A stretch of 64,000 nucleotides of DNA, from assembly GCA_001464545.1 (NCBI GenBank), contig LNFC01000023.1:1-64000 (forward strand), in the 5' to 3' direction. Origin of the DNA: Acidobacteria bacterium Ga0077551 (GTDB lineage Bacteria > Pseudomonadota > Alphaproteobacteria > Caulobacterales > Hyphomonadaceae). This document shows positions 540-44,020 of the stretch, one piece after another. The notes beneath the pieces were generated by a model. That model saw nothing but the letters and a program-made list of their open reading frames with translations. It had not been told where the DNA came from and ran no database searches. How positions within the stretch are numbered: position 1 is the stretch's first letter; every line of letters begins with the position of its first letter. The translations under genes were made by a program, and so were the position numbers.

Positions 540-739
540 CTCTCTGTGCCGGCGGCATGGCTTCATCATTTCGCATCATTGGTTTCAGCGGTGCGATGTC
601 AGCGGACGCGGCTTTGAGCCAGGGGAAGCGGCATTCAGTGCTGTGCCCCCCGATACTTGATCCGTTTGAAGTCACAGCCGGTTCCGCCCGAAGAAGCTGG
701 AATCCTACAAGCCGGTCATCCGTCCGTAAGACCATGACG

Positions 740-850
740 TCCGACTTCGGCGATCTCCTGCCTGGTTTCGGCTAGGCGGCCGAAGGGCGGTACTGAGGCG
801 ACCGTGCCGGACGCCCAGCCCAATAATCGGAGCCGACATGACCCACTTCG
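740..850 (+). repeat. Intergenic repeat family R1, copy A
   Basis: Longest copy of a degenerate repeat that recurs in the first 5.2 kb. It has arms CTTCGGC (745-751) and GCCGAAG (779-785), a middle block TGAGGCGACCGTGCCGG and an end block resembling ATCGGAGCCGACATGACCC (about 825-843). The last two blocks recur in other copies near 1380, 2961, 3541 and 5007. The 540-909 stretch that contains it has no convincing gene; a 72-codon open frame at 557-775 runs into the repeat and is not supported. Confidence 0.6.
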
Positions 851-909
851 GAAGGTCCCGGCAGCTGGGCTGACTAGGAGACGGAAGCGAACTTCAATAA
901 CGTGTCTCG

Positions 910-1335
910 ATGACAACCTCGGAAGATCAACTAGCTGATTTCCTCAAGCAGGCTAGCGATTTTGAACGAGCCGTGCCGGATGGTGCGGACCTGTTCAAAG
1001 CCATGGGTGTTACCGGTGATGACGCATTCGAACTCATGGACAGCTTCTTCGCCGCCTTCGAAATCGACGCATCAGAGTACAGGTGGTATTTCCATCATGC
1101 GGAAGAAGGGATGAACGTCGGTGGCTTGGTGTTCAAGTCACCCGATCAATGCGTGGACTATATCCCGCTGACCCCCGAGATTTTGAAGGAAGCCATAAAG
1201 TCGAAGCAGTGGCCGATACGCTACCCTGAACACTCGCTTCCAAAAGTGCGTGGCGACATGCTCATCAACCAAGTTCTGATGGTGGTTGGCGGCGCCGGAC
1301 TTTTGTTTTTCCTCTGGACTCGCTTTGTCACCTAG
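910..1335 (+). CDS. DUF1493-like protein with a C-terminal membrane segment
   Basis: 141 residues. Residues about 20-65 carry an acyl-carrier-protein-like helical pattern, GDDAFELMDSFFAAFEI followed by YRWYFHHAEEG, which is the signature I associate with the DUF1493 family (family knowledge, no search run). The far C-terminus (about residues 118-137) is a hydrophobic helix ending in WTRFVT, so the protein is probably tail-anchored with its soluble part in the cytoplasm. The function of the family is unknown. The stop codon is followed directly by a divergent copy of the R1 intergenic repeat. It stands alone, with no operon partner on the same strand. The ATG at 910 gives the expected family N-terminus, although the upstream ribosome-binding site is weak. 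Confidence 0.7.
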   Translation: MTTSEDQLADFLKQASDFERAVPDGADLFKAMGVTGDDAFELMDSFFAAFEIDASEYRWYFHHAEEGMNVGGLVFKSPDQCVDYIPLTPEILKEAIKSKQWPIRYPEHSLPKVRGDMLINQVLMVVGGAGLLFFLWTRFVT

Positions 1336-1410
1336 CGGCGATCTACGGCCTTGTGCCGGCGAAGGAACCGAATGGCAGGAATGAGGCGACATTGCCAGAA
1401 GGCGAAATCG
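1335..1410 (+). repeat. Intergenic repeat family R1, copy B (divergent)
   Basis: Starts at the stop codon of the DUF1493-like gene. It keeps GGCGATCTACGGCC, CCGAATGGC and TGAGGCGACATTGCC in the same order and spacing as copies A and C, but the first arm is eroded. Confidence 0.45.
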
Positions 1411-1434
1411 ATTGTTGGAGCAGGCTTGGGCCGT

Positions 1435-2757
1435 TCAAGATGTAATAGCCATGGGCTTTCTCTCAGCGGAGACCACCTTGGCTAGCGGGTCGCTGCGATG
1501 GGTTGAGAGCCAGGTTTTTTTGCCCGCTTCGTCTGCCCGAACGTATTCACCCAGCGCCGGTCGCCCCACCATTTGGCCGAGCTGATCGACAAGCTTTACC
1601 CAAGACGGATTTGCTGCGGTGAAAGAGCCTTTGCTCAAGTCTTCGGCGTGGATCAAATTGAAAGGTGGCGTCAGGTCGCACGGCTCCAAAATGCATGCGC
1701 ATAGCACGCCGCGCTGGCGTCCAATGGTCGCTTCCGCACGGACCCAATCAGAGGCGTTTGCGCCGGGGGACCAACAAACGAGCACCGCCTTCGCTGCGCG
1801 CACCTGCTGATTGATTTCATCGTCGAAAGTTTCTCCAGAGGCCAGATGAGCATCAAACCAAACCTCGAATTTCAGTTCACGCAGCGCGTCGACCATGGCC
1901 TCGACGCGCGGACGTTCCTCGCGTTTGTAGGAAACAAACACATCCGGTGTGAGATTGGCGCGAGACGCCGCCGTTTCGAAGAGTTTGCGGTGAGCAAGCG
2001 CAAGACAAAGCGGGACACCGACGACAGCAAGAGCTTGGACGCCGGAGAACGATTCCAAAAAAATGGTCGATGAGAACGTATTCGCATCGCCGAGCGTGCG
2101 TTCGATTTCGAGGCCAACGTTCCAGGCGATGTCAGTAATGCCGAGCGCCAACACGGCAAAAGTTAGCAGCCTGAAGGAGATGTGGCGCGGCGAGAAAAAG
2201 GACAAGACAAGGAAGAGAATGACCCAGACGGCGTACAGCGCGAAATCCGGTACGATAAAAGGGTCACCCCAACGCATGTCGTACACCCAATAGCGAAGGG
2301 AGCTCCCGAAAGTCGCTATCCAGAAAAGTCCAAGCATGGCCAAAATTGGCGCTTGACGCGAACGAGCGAAGATCGCCGCAGCAGTCAATGGGAGGATAGC
2401 AATTAGCGCGAGCCAGTCCAACTCGGCGCTGCCAGGCTTCGGAATTCGATAACTGATAAACTCATCAACCTCAACGATCGCGCCGAAGAAGATTAGAAAC
2501 GCACCAGTAACGGCTGCCACTACTGACAACTGATATCGTCGGAAAAATGATCCGAGGATAATGCAGATCAGACCGGTGCCGGCTGCCAACATTCCCAGCG
2601 CTCTATCCGCGTAGCTAAACTCGCGGACGAGGCTGGCGCCAAACATTACAGCCACGGTGCCAACGAGGCCGAAAGCGAAAACCCGCCAGAAATTGTAGGA
2701 CCAAGCCGCAGCTGCGACAGCGCCGAAGCCGACCAAACTTAGGAAATAACCCACCAT
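1435..2757 (-). CDS. Polytopic membrane protein with C-terminal TIR domain
   Basis: 440 residues from the ATG at 2757, which is preceded by GGGAGAAAAGT; a GTG eight codons upstream is a poorer start. About nine hydrophobic segments fill residues 1-255. A TIR domain follows (about 271-392): DVFVSYKREE, then FEVWFDAHLASGETF, AVLVCWSPG and SDWVRAEA. The Glu in SDWVRAEA (about residue 342) sits where NAD-cleaving TIR enzymes carry their catalytic Glu. Bacterial TIR domains commonly hydrolyse or cyclise NAD+ in phage defence (family knowledge); a membrane sensor joined to a TIR effector is an inference here. No Thoeris, CBASS or other partner gene lies beside it. It lies between small orphan genes and R1 repeats in the low-GC end of the window. 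A C-terminal tail of about 45 residues is not recognised. Confidence 0.8.
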   Translation of the reverse strand: MVGYFLSLVGFGAVAAAAWSYNFWRVFAFGLVGTVAVMFGASLVREFSYADRALGMLAAGTGLICIILGSFFRRYQLSVVAAVTGAFLIFFGAIVEVDEFISYRIPKPGSAELDWLALIAILPLTAAAIFARSRQAPILAMLGLFWIATFGSSLRYWVYDMRWGDPFIVPDFALYAVWVILFLVLSFFSPRHISFRLLTFAVLALGITDIAWNVGLEIERTLGDANTFSSTIFLESFSGVQALAVVGVPLCLALAHRKLFETAASRANLTPDVFVSYKREERPRVEAMVDALRELKFEVWFDAHLASGETFDDEINQQVRAAKAVLVCWSPGANASDWVRAEATIGRQRGVLCACILEPCDLTPPFNLIHAEDLSKGSFTAANPSWVKLVDQLGQMVGRPALGEYVRADEAGKKTWLSTHRSDPLAKVVSAERKPMAITS

Positions 2758-2937
2758 ACTTTTCTCCCGCCTTGAGTACACGGGAAGCCGACTTGTGGTT
2801 TCTTGTCCATATATTTCATTCTGAATTCCGAGCGAGCTGGGCTTTTTAATCGACCTCGGCTTGATGCGTTCTTCGGGGTGACATGAACCTCGATTGGTCC
2901 GGCGTCCATTTGGAGCATTGTCAGCGGTCTGTCATTC

Positions 2938-3063
2938 GGCGACAGGCGGTCGATGACCGGATTCGGCGATGTCGAGCCTGGCGATGGTGAGGCGGCTGAA
3001 TGACAGGACTGGGGTGCCCTTGCCGTTCCCTGAACCGCACGAAGTGAGCCGACCTGGCTCTTG
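2938..3063 (+). repeat. Intergenic repeat family R1, copy F
   Basis: Contains ATTCGGC (2961-2967) facing GGCTGAAT (2994-3001) with one G-T pair, GTGCCCTTGCCGTTCCCTGA, and the end block GTGAGCCGACCTGGCTC (3044-3060). It occupies most of the 2758-3106 gap upstream of the secreted protein gene; the rest of that gap is AT-rich and probably holds the promoter of the TIR gene. Confidence 0.6.
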
Positions 3064-3106
3064 GCGGAAGCTTGTAGGCGGCGGGCAGCCTTGCTACTCG
3101 ACCTTT

Positions 3107-3538
3107 ATGAGCAGGATACTTGTGGCACTGGTCGCCGTAACGTCGGCACTCGCTGTGGCGCCGTCGGCGTTTGCGCAGAAAACAGTTTCTGAGGCCATGG
3201 TTCGAGCAATCGAGAACCAGATGGTGATGCCACGGCGGGCCAAAGAGTTGGAGCTCTATGATCGCTATTACGCATACGATCATGTGAGTGGGCGCGAGGT
3301 GATTGCTGGAGTTTACGTTCTTCGCAAGTCTTCGGAGGCAAGAGTGGTTGATGGCGCTGCGCCAGTGCCAAACGTCAAGAACGCATTCACCACTCCGCAA
3401 GAGTACATGCCCCCGATAGTGGACGGTGGCTGCTCGGTTGTTCGCCTTTATTTTGACCTGACGACTGAGAGTTTAATCTGGATCAGGAATGAAGGCTCGG
3501 ACGCATTTGAGCTAGGTGTCTGTAACGGACACGCCTGA
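3107..3538 (+). CDS. Secreted protein of unknown function
   Basis: 143 residues from the ATG at 3107. This start gives a standard Sec signal peptide (hydrophobic stretch about 4-18, cleavage after APSAFAQ), while the longer open frame would translate an R1 repeat copy. The mature part of about 120 residues has two Cys (in GGCSVV and GVCNG) that could form a disulphide in the periplasm, and a central segment YDHVSGREVIAGVYV. I recognise no family. The R1 repeat copy C begins right after its stop codon, repeating the gene-then-repeat layout of its neighbours. Confidence 0.6.
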   Translation: MSRILVALVAVTSALAVAPSAFAQKTVSEAMVRAIENQMVMPRRAKELELYDRYYAYDHVSGREVIAGVYVLRKSSEARVVDGAAPVPNVKNAFTTPQEYMPPIVDGGCSVVRLYFDLTTESLIWIRNEGSDAFELGVCNGHA

Positions 3539-3540
3539 AC

Positions 3541-3650
3541 GTCTCCTTTCGGCGATCTCCGGCCTGGTTACCCTGATACGGCCGAACGGCTGAGCTGAGG
3601 TGACGCTGCCGGTCGCTGAACCTGAAACATAATTCCGACCTAGGTCGCAG
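3541..3650 (+). repeat. Intergenic repeat family R1, copy C
   Basis: Begins two bases after the preceding stop codon. The arms TTCGGC (3548-3553) and GCCGAA (3581-3586) can pair. The blocks GGCGATCTCCGGCCTGGT and TGAGGTGACGCTGCCGGT match copy A with few changes, and a CCGACCTAGG block closes the element. Confidence 0.65.
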
Positions 3651-3692
3651 CTGCCATTTACGGTGGCGGTGTGATCCAGTAAAATTTCACTC

Positions 3693-4049
3693 ATGACCCG
3701 CACATGGATCAATCCTGAGAATTCGTTTTGGCGCAACGCGGCTGGCGTTGTTGCTGCGGCGATCATCATTCCGATCGCGACTGTCGTGAAGCTGATTTCG
3801 ATGCCATTCGAGCGGCCAGTCAAACGAACGGCGGCCGAAGTGGCTCAGTACCTACGCGGCGTTATCAACGATTCGGATGGCAATTGGGATTGGGATGAGT
3901 TCACTAGCGTTCCGCTCTCCGATCCAAGCTTAGAGTCGATCAGGCAACGGGCGGCTAGCGTGGAAATGCCGGTCACCGAAGAAGGGCGACGCACGCTCGT
4001 TGCGTTGCTTAGGGAAGCAGAGGTCGCGAGTAAAATCCGGCGGGCTTAA
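3693..4049 (+). CDS. Small membrane protein of unknown function
   Basis: 118 residues with one hydrophobic segment at about 16-36 (AAGVVAAAIIIPIATVVKL), so probably a single-span inner-membrane protein. The soluble part contains DGNWDWDEFTSVPL followed by DPSLESIRQRAA. I recognise this as a recurrent pattern in small uncharacterised proteobacterial proteins, but I can give no function. The start at 3693 places the membrane helix near the N-terminus as expected. It is followed at once by a decayed R1 repeat and preceded by copy C, so it sits in its own repeat-bounded unit. Confidence 0.65.
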   Translation: MTRTWINPENSFWRNAAGVVAAAIIIPIATVVKLISMPFERPVKRTAAEVAQYLRGVINDSDGNWDWDEFTSVPLSDPSLESIRQRAASVEMPVTEEGRRTLVALLREAEVASKIRRA

Positions 4050-4130
4050 GAGTCCGCTCTCGACGATCTTCCGCCTAGTGATGATGTGACTGAACCACAG
4101 GATAGAGTCGATCCTGTAAGACACCTAAAT
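4049..4130 (+). repeat. Intergenic repeat family R1, copy D (decayed)
   Basis: The first part GTCCGCTCTCGACGATCTTCCGCCTAG (4051-4077) follows the R1 5' block with several changes; later blocks are not clear. The nearby stretch 4197-4227 holds nested arms CTAGC/GCTAG and CCTTA/TAAGG that could form a hairpin, without a T-tract on either strand. Nothing else is seen between 4050 and 4268. Confidence 0.35.
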
Positions 4131-4268
4131 CAATGATCGGAATCCATCTGGCCCTTAGCTGTCTGTCGTAAGTCTAAGGAGCCTGACTTGTGACACCTAG
4201 CCAAACCTTAAACCATGTAAGGGCTAGACTCGTAAAATGAATGAGGGACGCGAAGAGCTCAGCTCAGG

Positions 4269-4832
4269 CTATGAACACGACTCAAGAACAAAAAACTCGT
4301 CGTTGCTGTCGTCTGCGAGTCGCGAACTGATTTCTGCATCTGTTGGTCGGCTATCAAATGCTAGTCGCGAAAAGAGCAATGCCGGACGGTGATTGATGCT
4401 GCTGGATTGGGGCGAGGCAAGCCCGGACTCTGATTTGGCCCGTTGGACGATTTCCGAAGGTACCTCGGTAAAAACTGCTAAGGAAATTGAACCATCAGCT
4501 TCTTCAGTGAACCCTAAAAAAATGCGGGCCGTGCCGGCTGCCGGCCCTGATATGCGTGTTCCTTCCCAGCTTTCGACTCGGTCAATTCGAAATCTCGCAG
4601 GTTCTATCGATCCGGATTTGTCCCAAAACTCACCATTTTGTATCAACACATCCTTCGCAACAGAGTCATCACATATTGCGGGCCCCATGGCGTACTCCCC
4701 TTCAATTGAAGGAAAGTAATCCTGCTCATGGCCCAAACTTGCTTGGTCGGGCGAACCGGCGACCCTAGAAACGGGAGCGCACGCGGCCGGTGCGATCAAA
4801 AGGATCCAAAGGAGGAAACCGAACTTTTCCAT
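4269..4832 (-). CDS. Exported protein of unknown function
   Basis: 187 residues. The N-terminus MEKFGFLLWILLIAPAAC is a signal sequence. Cys18 follows a poor lipobox (no Leu at -3), so it may be a lipoprotein or a normally cleaved secreted protein. The mature part mentions no family I know. It has the two-Cys pattern (one in AICDDS, one near the C-terminus in LESCS) that suggests one disulphide, and a segment GPAAGTARIFLGFTEEADGS. The start at 4832 has GGAAC 6 bp upstream. Codon use is distinctly less GC-biased than in genes beyond 16.5 kb. Confidence 0.65.
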   Translation of the reverse strand: MEKFGFLLWILLIAPAACAPVSRVAGSPDQASLGHEQDYFPSIEGEYAMGPAICDDSVAKDVLIQNGEFWDKSGSIEPARFRIDRVESWEGTRISGPAAGTARIFLGFTEEADGSISLAVFTEVPSEIVQRAKSESGLASPQSSSINHRPALLFSRLAFDSRPTDAEISSRLADDSNDEFFVLESCS

Positions 4833-5006
4833 GTAGCGTTCCAGTCGGAGGATTGGAGTTTAGCCGCAAAGACTGAGCTTAAGGTTGCTTCGCTGCGTTT
4901 AACTGTATCAACTGTACGATGGTCGATGACCGCGTCGCTTTGACGTGCGCTAGTTCCTCTGTCCGCATACGACTGGCAGCGATTTACTCCAAGCGTGGCG
5001 CAAATG

Positions 5007-5115
5007 ACCGCTCTCGGCGAGTCCTGCCTGGTGTATGTGAGGCCGCTAGACGGCACGATTGGATCGACCCTGCCGGTCCCTGCGTTTGACGATCGGAGCC
5101 GACCTGGCCCTAAAT
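5007..5115 (+). repeat. Intergenic repeat family R1, copy E
   Basis: Carries CTCTCGGCGAGTCCTGCCTGG (5011-5031), facing GCCG at 5042-5045, then GATCGACCCTGCCGGTCCCTG and GATCGGAGCCGACCTGGCCC (5091-5110). It sits between the exported protein gene (upstream region 4833-5006, nothing else seen) and the 3' end of the lipoprotein gene at 5143. Confidence 0.65.
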
Positions 5116-5142
5116 AGCCGCTCGGTCAGATTGGCTGAAAGG

Positions 5143-5532
5143 CTAGTTCCCCGCCTCGCCAATAGCGCCTTCAACGGCGGCCGTTGTTGCACATTGCACC
5201 AATGCCTCGCGGGTCTCGGCGTCAACATTGCCGGCTTTCTCGATGGCGGCCGGCAAGCCTTCACCGCTAAGACTTTCGCTCACGACATTCTTCAGCGCTT
5301 GCAGGTGCTCACCGGTGATCTCGGGCCCCAGGCTGTCCTGCACGCAGCCGCAGAATACTTCCGATTGCCCGGCCAGAACGCAGGCCGTCTTGGTATCCAC
5401 TGCGCCGCTGGCCGCCTCGAGCGCCTGCCCGCCGAGATCGAGCGCGCCCTGCTTCACTTGTTGTAGGTCGGCCGCATCGCCGCAGGCCGTAAGCACCAAT
5501 GCGAAACCGGCCACCAGAACAGTACGCATCAT
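5143..5532 (-). CDS. Small lipoprotein, near-identical paralogue of the gene at 43069
   Basis: 129 residues with signal peptide and lipobox (LVLTAC, Cys at about 17), so probably a membrane-anchored periplasmic lipoprotein. The mature part holds four further Cys: one in KTACVLAG, CGC as a pair in EVFCGCVQD, and one in LVQCATT. This resembles small Cys-pattern exported proteins of unknown role. It differs from the 43069-43458 product at only nine of 129 positions and lies in opposite orientation. Similarity extends about 25 bp past the stop codon (CTGACCGAGCGGCT shared) and into the ribosome-binding site. Two adjacent ATG codons are present; the second has better spacing. Confidence 0.8.
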   Translation of the reverse strand: MMRTVLVAGFALVLTACGDAADLQQVKQGALDLGGQALEAASGAVDTKTACVLAGQSEVFCGCVQDSLGPEITGEHLQALKNVVSESLSGEGLPAAIEKAGNVDAETREALVQCATTAAVEGAIGEAGN

Positions 5533-5714
5533 GTTTTCCTTCTTTCTTTTACGGCGATAGATCCGCCTTGTTCCATATGCGGATTCATGTGCGCAGCGCT
5601 ACGCAGATGAGCGCTAGCGACCGCGCCAGTCGCATCTTGATTCGAGGTAGACGATCTCGATCTTCGCTGACCAGCCGGCGCTGCCGGCTGTCAGGCAGCA
5701 GCGCCGGTCACGGA

Positions 5715-6257: not shown

Positions 6258-6701
6258 GGGTCTCTCCTCTTGTGTGCATTCGGGAGAGGGCGACGCAGAG
6301 CGCTTTGGACAATTCCAAGCCTGCACCGGTTCTCCCGGTGCGGTCCGACATCACAGCAGCTTCCTATCTAGGTTGCTGCCGCCAGAGGGGCCCGGTCCGC
6401 ATGATGCAAAAGTGGTATGGAGCCGGGCTGCGTGCAAGTACGCGCTCAGAGGTTTTCGGGATGTTCATCAGAATTTAATGAGCAAAGGCGGCGACGACGG
6501 CGTAGGGGGAGCCGCCCTGCGCCTTGGTCCGCTCGACTAACAAGTTGCGGCCATCGAGCCCCGCTTTGTGCGTGCTGTCTTGAGATGCTAGTTTTCAACT
6601 CGATTTCTTCAGGGAGGAATACACGTGCGCTAGTTTGAGCGCATCGGCGTCAGCCTCACGGCTGCCGCCCCAACCGCTTCTTGGGCAGACAGGCGGTGCT
6701 T
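6258..6701. other. Intergenic stretch without recognised gene
   Basis: 444 bp upstream of the YdcH-like gene and downstream of the pyruvate kinase-like gene. Open frames here have no ribosome-binding site or family match. It should hold the promoter of the YdcH-like unit; I see no clear terminator hairpin. Confidence 0.4.
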
Positions 6702-9214: not shown

Positions 9215-9952
9215 TTAGAACTCCCGGCCAACGAACAGTTTGAACATGGTGTCATCCGCGCCGCGTGTGACACCAGAACGGACGGCGGTTTGCAGATAAA
9301 CGCCGTTGTCCCATTCGACTTTCAGAATTGGGCCTATCTGGTGCGCCTGATCCTCGAAACCCGGAATATCGCGGATGTTGCCGTACTCACTGAATGCTTC
9401 CAATCCGAGACGCCAGTCTTCGGATCCGAACGCGTTCAAGCTGATCGCCCGTGTAATCTGAGCACGGGTTTCGAACGCAACGCCGCCCTCGCTTCCTTCT
9501 CCTGCTTCGACTTCCGCTAAGATGTTTGCGCGCCATTCCCACACATCGGCGAACTTGTCGGTCAGCGTCAGGCGAGTTTCTATCTCGTCCGGACCCGGAC
9601 CGTCAGAGAAGCCGTAGGTGAGACGAAGGCCACCGTTGAAGCCGGAATTGTCTTCCGCCTCTTCACTCCATTGGAACCAGTTTTCAAAGGTCAGGCCTGA
9701 AAAATTCCAGTCTTGCCCGTCAGGTTGACGAAACGTGCCGATCACCCGGACCTGATACCAGTCGTTCAGACCGTAATCGTAGTGAAGCCTTCCGGCGGCG
9801 TTGCCTTCGTCGTCGAAACCGGTCCGGAATTCGACGGATCGTTCACCAGCGGTGATGCTGGCGGAGCCAACATTGCCTGTAAGAGATTGAGCGTTCGCTG
9901 GCGCGGCAATGAAGCAACCGGCAAGGGTGAGAGTGTAGAAGATGGAGCGCAT
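9215..9952 (-). CDS. Outer-membrane beta-barrel protein of unknown function
   Basis: 245 residues. Signal peptide about 1-21 (cleavage after APANAQ). The mature protein is a run of short amphipathic strands alternating with acidic turns, such as RLHYDYGLNDWYQVRVIGTF, FENWFQWSEEAEDNSGFNGG and EIETRLTLTDKF. It ends in KLFVGREF, with the terminal Phe typical of outer-membrane barrels. No family is recognised; the length suggests about ten to twelve strands. It is a single-gene unit with its own terminator, between the ompW-like gene and the NTF2-like gene, all facing left. Confidence 0.7.
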   Translation of the reverse strand: MRSIFYTLTLAGCFIAAPANAQSLTGNVGSASITAGERSVEFRTGFDDEGNAAGRLHYDYGLNDWYQVRVIGTFRQPDGQDWNFSGLTFENWFQWSEEAEDNSGFNGGLRLTYGFSDGPGPDEIETRLTLTDKFADVWEWRANILAEVEAGEGSEGGVAFETRAQITRAISLNAFGSEDWRLGLEAFSEYGNIRDIPGFEDQAHQIGPILKVEWDNGVYLQTAVRSGVTRGADDTMFKLFVGREF

Positions 9953-10661: not shown

Positions 10662-10781
10662 GTGACTTCCTTTCGATTGAAGCCCAACAGAGCGGCTGGG
10701 CGCCGAGCTATCGTGCTCGTGACAGCCAGATGGCACCGATGCGTCGCGCTGAACTCTGTCAGTTGGGTTAGCCTGTCGGCT

Positions 10782-42706: not shown

Positions 42707-43068
42707 TCTTGCCCACCTTGAAAAAGAAGAGACGGTCACATCAGACAGCGCTGTCGCTGCAATATCCCGCGCCGCACTGCCGAACACCTCTATGGCGCAG
42801 ATGCGACGATAGGTGACGCTGTATCTGTCCAGCGCCTGTTTGGACAGACCCGAACAGAAAGCACAGCCAAATAGCTCGGTGCCGGCGTCGATGACAATCG
42901 GGCTTTCGCGACCGCGACACTTTCGCAATGTCCCGGGCGAGACGATTGCGGAAGCGCCCGGGGGTAGCCACGTCTCCCCGCGAACGGAAAAACCAATGAC
43001 CATCCAGCCGCTTCACGGCCTCCGGCTGACCGGGGCTTTCGACAAGCGAGGAAAGATAAAGGGAAAAC
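42707..43068. other. Intergenic region without recognised gene
   Basis: 362 bp between divergent UPF0114 and lipoprotein genes. Composition is intermediate. Open frames here are antisense shadows or lack start sites. The right end has GGGAAAAC before the lipoprotein start. Confidence 0.4.
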
Positions 43069-43458
43069 ATGATGCGTACTGTTCTGATGGCCGGTTTCGC
43101 TCTGGTGCTTGCGGCCTGCGGCGATGCAGCCGACCTGCAACGAGTGAAGCAGGGCGCGCTCGATCTGGGCGGGCAGGCGCTCGAGGCGGCAAGCGGCGCA
43201 GTGGATACCAAGACGGCCTGCGTTCTGGCCGGGCAATCGGAAGCATTCTGCGGCTGCGTGCAGGACAGCCTGGGGTCCGAGATCACCGGCGAGCATCTGG
43301 AAGCGCTGAAGAATGTCGTGAGCGAAAGTCTCAGCGGAGAAGGCTTGCCGGCCGCCATCGAGAAAGCCGGCAATGTTGACGCCCAGACCAGCGAGGCATT
43401 GGTGCAATGTGCAACAACGGCGGCCGTTGAAGGCGCTCTGGGCGAGGCGGGGAACTAG
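43069..43458 (+). CDS. Small lipoprotein, second copy (paralogue of 5143-5532)
   Basis: 129 residues, 120 of them identical to the product of 5143-5532. The nine changes are at signal positions (V/M, T/A), then Q/R, V/A, P/S, Q/E, E/Q, R/S and I/L, so most are conservative. The lipobox is LVLAAC and all mature Cys are kept. The ribosome-binding GGGAAAAC is similar to the first copy, and the shared 3' flank CTGACCGAGCGGCT extends about 25 bp past the stop. The two copies face opposite ways and lie about 38 kb apart, each in lower-GC surroundings, which fits duplication or transfer of one mobile unit. No partner gene is recognised. Confidence 0.85.
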   Translation: MMRTVLMAGFALVLAACGDAADLQRVKQGALDLGGQALEAASGAVDTKTACVLAGQSEAFCGCVQDSLGSEITGEHLEALKNVVSESLSGEGLPAAIEKAGNVDAQTSEALVQCATTAAVEGALGEAGN

Positions 43459-44020
43459 TTTTCACCCGCACTGACCGAGCGGCTTGAACAGGTCCATCCA
43501 ATCCGCCCGGCGCGCCAGAGCGTTGCAGCCGTTGGACCAGTGCGGCCGACACACAGCGTTCGGCGCCGGACGCCGTAACTTGGCGAGCCCTGCCGTGGCA
43601 GGCCAAAAGCCAGAGCCTTTGGGAATGGCGGGAAATCACCGATCGCGGTCACAACGTACGCATCCGGCCAGCACCGCGGCTAGAGGAGTTTAGGCCGCAT
43701 TTGCGGTCCGGTTTTGAGCGTGATCAAGGCCGCTCCTGGGCGCCTTCCAGTTCCACGGCGGAGAGCGGCCCACCTTCGGTCCGACCGAACTCCGATAGTC
43801 AGACTTTAGCCGCGGTGCCTGCAGCGCTCAGTCCACCCAGCATGATCTCACATCGATCAACTAAGCTCACGGCCGAAACCGCCATGGACGACTACGTGGT
43901 TTGCAGGGTGCGGCGACTCTAGGCACACGCGCCGCGGCAAGATATGGAAGGCATTTGGATCTCGCTTGGCGATCAAGACTGCGCCGGTTGGCGCACCCAT
44001 GGAACGAGCAAGGACAGGAC
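43459..44020. other. Stretch without recognised gene
   Basis: 562 bp after the lipoprotein gene. It holds repeat copy 2 (43574-43612) and further short patterns such as GAGAGCGGCCCACCTTCGG that vaguely resemble R1 end blocks. Open frames here lack start sites or are antisense shadows. Confidence 0.4.
43574..43612 (+). repeat. Dispersed repeat, copy 2 of a direct pair
   Basis: Contains AACTTGGCGAGCCC followed by TGCCGTGGCAGGCCAAAAG, matching copy 1 at 42102-42140 with a few changes. Together they bracket the UPF0114 and lipoprotein genes. Confidence 0.5.

Follow-up and report, generated by a model that had tools for sequence, protein, structure and literature searches.

Integrons are the textbook collectors of gene cassettes. 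Recombination in an integron takes place at a single crossover point, and the attC body travels with its gene. DNA invertases of the FimB/FimE type, which are ~200 amino acids (aa) long and have little beyond a catalytic domain, flip a segment lying between two sites. The pdif (dif) modules of Acinetobacter are described, in an excerpt of PMC13141974, as being moved by XerC/XerD, with inverted sites that contain 6-base-pair (bp) spacers and exchange between like spacers. Here, we analyse a 64,000-nucleotide (nt) stretch of DNA (the window; positions 1 to 64,000 of contig LNFC01000023.1, assembly GCA_001464545.1) from an organism deposited as Acidobacteria bacterium Ga0077551 and classified in the Hyphomonadaceae, in which ~110-bp repeats alternate with gene units. 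The reading that we favour, with a probability of roughly 0.77, is that the repeats separate interchangeable units and that a short tyrosine recombinase recombines them at two six-base cores, a left-end CGGCGA and a right-end TGGCCC.

Repeat arrays in two genera

As assessed by an iterated profile search, the window contains six copies of the repeat (A to F), all in one orientation (Table 1). A first-pass annotation of this DNA had proposed five or six same-facing copies, one of them a weaker copy near position 4050; all six are present by profile, with support from non-circular searches, and the weaker one is repeat E. Since five of the six copies (all but E) seeded the profile, the scores of these five in Table 1 are partly circular. 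Used alone as a plain query, copy A recovers copy D at an E-value of 2.7e-8 and, in the rest of its own genome, copies on contigs C13 (1e-10), C12 (9.5e-8) and C20 (3.3e-7). This genome (3.08 Mb, 25 contigs) has 18 copies in all according to the profile model.

A DNA search of 61 genomes matched 15, of which 13 belong to the same genus, which we infer from named records to be Hyphomonas, and the other two gave one weak match each. A sequence-only model built from 79 copies (R1) matched 22 of 42 Hyphomonas genomes, 17 of them with at least two copies and a maximum of 60, in a genome search whose stricter tool filters lose weak matches. The 82 Hyphomonas loci that were searched yielded 195 copies in 78 loci, 171 of which are near full length. 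Neighbours no more than 4 kb apart are on the same strand in 100 cases versus 3 on opposite strands, with a median gap of 1.0 kb.

A scan with the recombinase found in these arrays led to a second genus, represented by G066 (Hyphomonadaceae bacterium JAD_PAG50586_4), a metagenome-assembled genome (MAG) with a complete chromosome and its own ~110-bp repeats. A single 154-kb stretch (3,630,846-3,784,637) carries 84 copies by iterated profiles (85 with the refined profile), all on the minus strand, and 25 further copies were found across five smaller stretches that were inspected. In this genus 26 of 30 genomes matched, with 1 to at least 120 copies each; loci from nine genomes gave 246 copies, and neighbours within 4 kb are on the same strand in 206 cases versus 0. 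A model trained on G066 only (R2) recognises Hyphomonas copies, including, among the matches listed, window copies F (2.1e-6), C (6.2e-6) and B (4.1e-4), and the repeats of the two genera are therefore homologous. Between the genera the middle parts differ, whereas both ends are kept (left, TCGGCGA; right, TGGCCC). A spaced pattern, TTCGGCGA-N75-100-TGGCCC, was tried as an array finder and rejected as too noisy, matching 100 of 105 genomes, with array genomes mildly richer.

The search for further copies had been set beforehand as a test, and such copies are numerous, occur in many genomes and align in one common register. Random pairs of repeat bodies are ~66% identical in Hyphomonas and ~60% in the second genus, and the bodies carry mosaic patches common to several copies. 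Because random bodies are this dissimilar and the units mostly unrelated, the repeats are not the product of one tandem duplication, an origin that had been raised at the outset. Many copies, each beside a different gene, and a unit content that differs between genomes had been expected, and both are seen.

The units have a median length of 1,058 bp in Hyphomonas (103 units) and 836 bp in G066 (97 units), and mostly hold one gene. Their longest open reading frames (ORF) run in both directions, 46 plus and 56 minus in Hyphomonas and 61 to 35 in G066, although some longest ORFs in this GC-rich DNA may not be genes. The 100 Hyphomonas unit proteins match 68 Pfam families, of which 13 are represented by two or three proteins and the others by a single protein; they include glutathione transferases, transporters, a beta-lactamase-fold protein, an EAL protein and a Pycsar-type TIR protein. 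In G066, 83 unit proteins match 108 families, and a few units contain IS110 transposases and group II intron proteins. PADLOC matched 14 models among the 100 Hyphomonas unit genes, one gene each, and the arrays are therefore not mainly defence islands.

One alternative is that the repeats are RNA or regulatory elements, such as terminators or riboregulators, placed beside small genes. Three of the six window copies indeed begin at a stop codon: the stop codons of small genes lie at, or a few bases from, the starts of B, D and E, where the first-pass annotation had named B, C and D. The same annotation had predicted that TTCGGC/GCCGAA arms within the repeat pair, with compensatory changes. This pairing fails, since RNAalifold finds two pairs and no compensatory change in 79 copies, and folding of the window copies shows no gain over shuffled sequence in five of six cases, the sixth being D with z -1.6. 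There is no Rfam match over the repeats, the genes of Hyphomonas units have mixed orientations, and the junction data presented below argue against RNA as the main function. An RNA element is thus hardly credible. What is conserved is sequence, chiefly the two end hexamers and not the inner arms. The repeat had been suggested to be an undescribed recombination or RNA-regulatory element; the recombination part of that suggestion stands, for an element that is apparently undescribed, and the RNA part falls on the lack of covariation.

Another alternative is an ordinary chromosomal integron, or a cluster of attC sites lacking an integron integrase (CALIN), with aberrant attC sites recombined as folded single strands by IntI. 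This would explain one-direction arrays of mostly one-gene units, a divergent recombinase gene, an attI-like site and arrays without an enzyme. Against it, the GTTRRRY core occurs in 2 and 4 of 79 Hyphomonas copies on the two strands, versus 5.2 and 4.0 in shuffles, and in 1 and 2 of 70 G066 copies, at or under shuffles. There is no consensus fold, and the bottom strand folded as DNA gives z-scores of -0.75 and -0.33 (40 copies per set), with no conserved hairpin. IntI (TIGR02249) exceeds its cut-off in none of 17 Hyphomonas genomes, the second genus being outside that search, and the array recombinases score 18.3 and 21.4 bits on this model versus a cut-off of 265. Moreover, the repeat body is not tied to one unit. 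Both halves of the original description, a cassette-like layout and the absence of an attC core, hold up, and an integron in the ordinary sense is highly improbable.

Twin cores and unit junctions

Reading inwards from the gene unit, either end of the repeat consists of GnC, six bases and a hexamer; this hexamer is CGGCGA at the left end and GGGCCA at the right end. The two hexamers are inverted, non-identical copies of the motif SGGCSA and differ at two positions only. GnC is found 9 nt outside an exact core at 54 of 64 left and 42 of 50 right ends in Hyphomonas, and at 59 of 67 left and 48 of 57 right ends in G066, where chance predicts 1 in 16; the sequence logos agree. Among copies that reach the end concerned, the core is exact in 146/163 (left) and 114/158 (right) Hyphomonas copies, and in 197/211 and 129/161 copies of the second genus. 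Since the hexamers are inverted and non-identical, with the same arm motif, each repeat is likely to be a pair of recombination sites.

In many cases two copies have the gene unit on one flank in common, whereas both the body and the opposite flank differ. In 20 hand-picked pairs with a common upstream flank, identity is 0.75-1.00 through CGGCGA inclusive but falls to 0.40 and 0.15 over the two bases that follow, the background being 0.45. In 15 hand-picked pairs with a common downstream flank there is a less sharp mirror drop at TGGCCC, and identities of 0.47 and 0.60 are seen at single positions immediately beyond it. When fixed thresholds were applied to Hyphomonas, 27 of the 32 pairs with a common upstream flank differ in both body and far side, two share the body only and three share everything; for a common downstream flank (22 pairs) the figures are 16, three and three. 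The same thresholds gave 11 upstream pairs in the second genus (seven differ in both, four share the body) and 10 downstream pairs (three and seven, respectively). A crossover in the middle of the repeat, considered because high-scoring segment pairs end near 72-88, was ruled out by base-by-base alignment of the flanks. A res site of a serine recombinase (~120 bp with three subsites) was a further candidate, suggested by repeat length only.

Near-identical copies are found in the isolate genome G131, identified in part by its recombinase as Ca. Viadribacter manganicus (PMC5009972, excerpt). A body-unit-body stretch of 1,305 bp, running from the CGGCGA of the first body to the TGGCCC of the second, is present in two places with 99.5% identity. 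A second unit and its preceding body are likewise present in two places, 100% identical over 364 + 308 bp, one copy having a 170-bp internal deletion; this similarity breaks at CGGCGA on both sides, and one flank has an N. Both kinds of crossover, at left and at right cores, therefore occur. The genome of the window also has one such case: the sequence upstream of repeat A matches that upstream of a copy on C13 with 97% identity for 110 nt, and the match ends at the left core.

Passive dispersed repeats, across which homologous recombination or transposition would shuffle genes with no dedicated sites, could explain the mosaic patches in the bodies and would fit the IS110 and group II intron proteins in a few G066 units. 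However, the identity between bodies is probably too low for efficient homologous recombination, the junctions fall at two hexamers and not along the body, and repeat orientation is nearly fixed, which makes this explanation very unlikely. If recombination instead takes place at the two cores, left cores would pair with left cores only and right cores with right cores only, because the two 6-bp spacers differ. A left-by-left event would move a repeat body with the unit that follows it, and a right-by-right event a unit with the body that follows it. Over a series of such events a unit would become separated from the bodies on both of its sides, which matches the observed pattern.

Two further observations concern the flanks. 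A 65-110-nt segment directly before the left core (~75-85% identity) is common to a subset of repeats, including A (741) and C (2957) and a number of copies outside the window, and may represent a sub-family of unit ends. In G022, contigs C36 and C69 (L042 and L181) open with an identical 141 letters before the left core and then diverge. This split may be a branch in the assembly graph, hinting at unit shuffling in the sampled population.

A short tyrosine recombinase within the arrays

A ~220-aa tyrosine recombinase is encoded inside arrays of G014 and G022, with a remnant in G031. It contains PF00589 only, the catalytic domain, and would probably cut at the cores. Its AlphaFold model, in which residues 1-30 are disordered, has a predicted local distance difference test score of 80. 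A Foldseek comparison with solved structures places it closest to XerA, XerH, Cre and an integron integrase (2a3v), with query template modelling scores of ~0.6-0.67. The catalytic R, K, H, R and Y, including the HxxR motif, are invariant in 13 aligned relatives, and the sixth residue is kept in 12. The recombinase of locus L114 (G029) has its second catalytic histidine changed (GH to GR); in the G029 genome R1 detects no repeat and R2 gives a single weak match.

The recombinase gene is opposed to the repeats in all 10 array copies checked (G014, G022, G024, G010, G066, G131, G136 and G146; remnants in G031 and G064). Upstream of the gene, at -105 to -222, an exact lone GGGCCA is present in eight of 16 Hyphomonadaceae loci, versus 469 of 3,200 (15%) random windows of the same loci; it was not found in the three loci of other groups. 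In seven of 19 loci, including that of G024, the sequence upstream of the recombinase matches the right part of the repeat model without a left end. The recombinases of G131 and G066 are 98% identical, and the two genomes have this sequence in common as far as TGGCCC, beyond which they differ. We read the lone right end, which adjoins a divergent recombinase gene, as a candidate primary insertion site comparable to attI.

Recombinase and repeats also co-occur. In Hyphomonas, the recombinase (counted at 58% identity or more, fragments included) is present in 10 of 17 genomes with at least two repeats versus three of 25 others (Fisher p 0.002), and in the second genus in eight of 12 genomes with at least 20 repeats versus one of 18 others (p 0.0006).

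The main rival concerns the acting enzyme: the repeats would be sites, but host XerC/XerD or another recombinase would act on them, the short recombinase being cargo. Other tyrosine recombinases, presumably Xer-like, are present in 17 of 17 genomes, arrays exist in genomes without the short recombinase, and the layout with 6-bp spacers is that of dif sites as described in the excerpt of PMC13141974. On the other hand, the exact XerD arm of dif, TTATGTTAA, occurs in 0 of 195 Hyphomonas copies and 0 of 246 copies of the second genus. Xer enzymes are, to our knowledge, universal, whereas the arrays are patchy, with no match in 20 of 42 Hyphomonas genomes. Furthermore, it is the short recombinase that co-occurs with the repeats, has a set orientation in the arrays and adjoins the half site. 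Action by host Xer enzymes is therefore unlikely, without being negligible.

Several points weigh against recombination of the cores by the short recombinase. At the level of the sites, right-hand junctions are blunter than left-hand ones, and in the window five of six left cores are exact but only two of six right cores, the other four being changed. Six of the 11 upstream pairs of the second genus are comparisons of recombinase-side half sites. Many junction pairs have members in common, so that the pairs are not independent events. Most of the genomes are MAGs, although the isolate genome has the same junctions, and no direct recombination was observed. As for the association, it is weaker across the family (nine of 21 genomes with at least two R2 matches versus 13 of 84 others, 105 genomes in all, p 0.013), and the thresholds of 2 and 20 copies were set after the counts were known. 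No recombinase match was found in seven of 17 Hyphomonas and four of 12 second-genus array genomes, three Hyphomonas genomes have a recombinase but no array, and of the eight recombinases counted in the second genus, those of G130 and G133 are 65% relatives encoded at a distance from the arrays on their contigs. The genome of the window, 92% complete, has a 31% Xer-like match only and no relative of the recombinase. Regarding gene position, distant relatives lying 13-16 kb from repeats (on G133 C2 and at 149.8 kb of G146 C3), which are outside the count of 10, have the same direction as the repeats. The upstream lone core was not found at several loci, L109, L111 and L113-L116 among them. Finally, the short recombinase sits like a cargo unit and could be a passenger.

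By analogy with the CALIN of integrons, the array in the window is likely to be a piece without its enzyme. Taken together, these findings make it fairly probable that the arrays represent a second, independent bacterial platform for gene capture, in which repeats have twin cores, one short recombinase trades units and bodies separately, entry is through an attI-like site, and one chromosomal super-array reaches 154 kb. Such a platform may reach well beyond the Hyphomonadaceae, because the enzyme family comprises at least 7,999 proteins (at an E-value of 1e-20) and a distant member has its own repeats and half site. That member, 62% identical and encoded at 10001-10576 of L126 (an uncultured proteobacterium), is accompanied by ~90-bp repeats at 6340, 6877, 7362 and 9270 on the plus strand and at 10680 and 12326 on the minus strand, and by a half repeat (9820-9865) upstream of the recombinase gene. 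L126 is possibly a second sub-type of the same platform; a profile derived from it matched L126 only and none of the 11 other loci given. In PLSDB, recombinase relatives occur on 332 of 72,556 plasmid records, with 68% as the best identity among the matches listed, and plasmid hosts include Pantoea, Sinorhizobium, Escherichia, Phaeobacter and Vibrio.

Features of the window and comparison with known systems

The features of the window are listed in Table 1. The stop codon of the gene in unit A-B abuts the left core of repeat B at 1336. The TIR protein of unit B-C scores 34 bits on the NCBIfam Thoeris ThcB4 model, versus a cut-off of 220, and its gene is possibly a defence gene. The protein of unit C-D has a homologue in the 154-kb array of G066 (52% identity over 143 aa), and the two units are almost the same length, 509 and 505 bp with margins. 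The unit after F recurs behind a repeat in genome G010 (L043), the homology beginning near the right core of F. Window positions 42913-43487 and 5087-5549 both match overlapping parts of L043 at 86-87%, and the gene of this unit has an apparent second copy near 43 kb of the window. The minus strand at 6336-6403 matches the terC RNA family (RF03067).

Table 1. Repeats and units of the array in the window. Profile matches are those of the iterated search.
Feature	Position	Strand	Profile match (E-value)	Description
Repeat A	737..855	+	741-850 (3e-22)	left core CGGCGA 748-753 intact; right core 839-844 TGACCC, one change from TGGCCC
Gene of unit A-B	910..1335	+		141 aa; weak DUF1493 match, E 0.0014, under Pfam cut-off
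Repeat B	1325..1443	+	1330-1436 (3e-20)	left core 1336-1341 intact; right core 1427-1432 TGGGCC, changed
Gene of unit B-C	1435..2781	-		448 aa; TIR domain PF13676, E 2.5e-18
Repeat C	2953..3071	+	2957-3064 (3e-21)	left core 2964-2969 intact; right core 3055-3060 TGGCTC, one change
Gene of unit C-D	3107..3538	+		143 aa; looks secreted
Repeat D	3539..3657	+	3544-3644 (9e-18)	left core 3550-3555 intact; right core 3641-3646 TAGGTC, degenerate
Gene of unit D-E	3693..4049	+		118 aa; no Pfam or NCBIfam match
Repeat E	4050..4165	+	4054-4161 (1e-15)	left core 4061-4066 CGACGA, one change; right core 4149-4154 TGGCCC intact
Gene of unit E-F	4269..4832	-		187 aa; no Pfam or NCBIfam match
Repeat F	5004..5121	+	5008-5117 (4e-22)	both cores intact, 5015-5020 CGGCGA and 5105-5110 TGGCCC
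Gene of unit after F	5143..5532	-		129 aa; lipoprotein-like signal (by eye)

The titles and opening lines of abstracts screened from the open-licence literature contain no description of such arrays, and one may exist elsewhere. If the arrays are a separate platform, the capture of cassettes, for which integrons are the standard example, would have arisen more than once. This would also explain a large and variable part of Hyphomonadaceae genomes, which tools based on attC and IntI are expected to miss, and would offer new recombination sites defined by their sequence.

Compared with known systems, the short recombinase is like FimB/FimE in size and domain content, but it is associated with rows of dozens of units instead of one segment between two sites, and it scores far under the cut-off of the invertase model NF007371. 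The resemblance to pdif modules, as these are presented in the excerpt of PMC13141974, is closer. In both cases units are bounded by inverted sites with a 6-bp spacer, here CGGCGA and GGGCCA with mirrored arms. Modules of two types follow each other in turn, in our arrays the gene units and the repeat bodies, and adjacent modules can be transferred as a pair (PMC13141974, same excerpt). In the sequence comparisons made here, junctions join like with like. Unlike pdif modules, the arrays described here have no XerD arm, every second module is a conserved ~85-bp non-coding body, and the arrays are long and chromosomal, with an embedded recombinase and an attI-like site. With integrons the arrays share mobile units of mostly one gene set head to tail, here more than 80 of them, as well as a divergent tyrosine recombinase gene, here beside what may be a primary site, enzyme-less arrays and very diverse cargo. 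They differ in having a sequence-conserved ~110-bp repeat with two crossover hexamers in place of GTTRRRY and a folded attC, a catalytic-domain-only recombinase far under the IntI cut-off, and genes that run in both directions. Whereas the attC body stays with its gene, junctions here fall at both ends of the repeat and the body does not stay with one unit. The arrays would work like an integron, yet by the four features tested they are not one.

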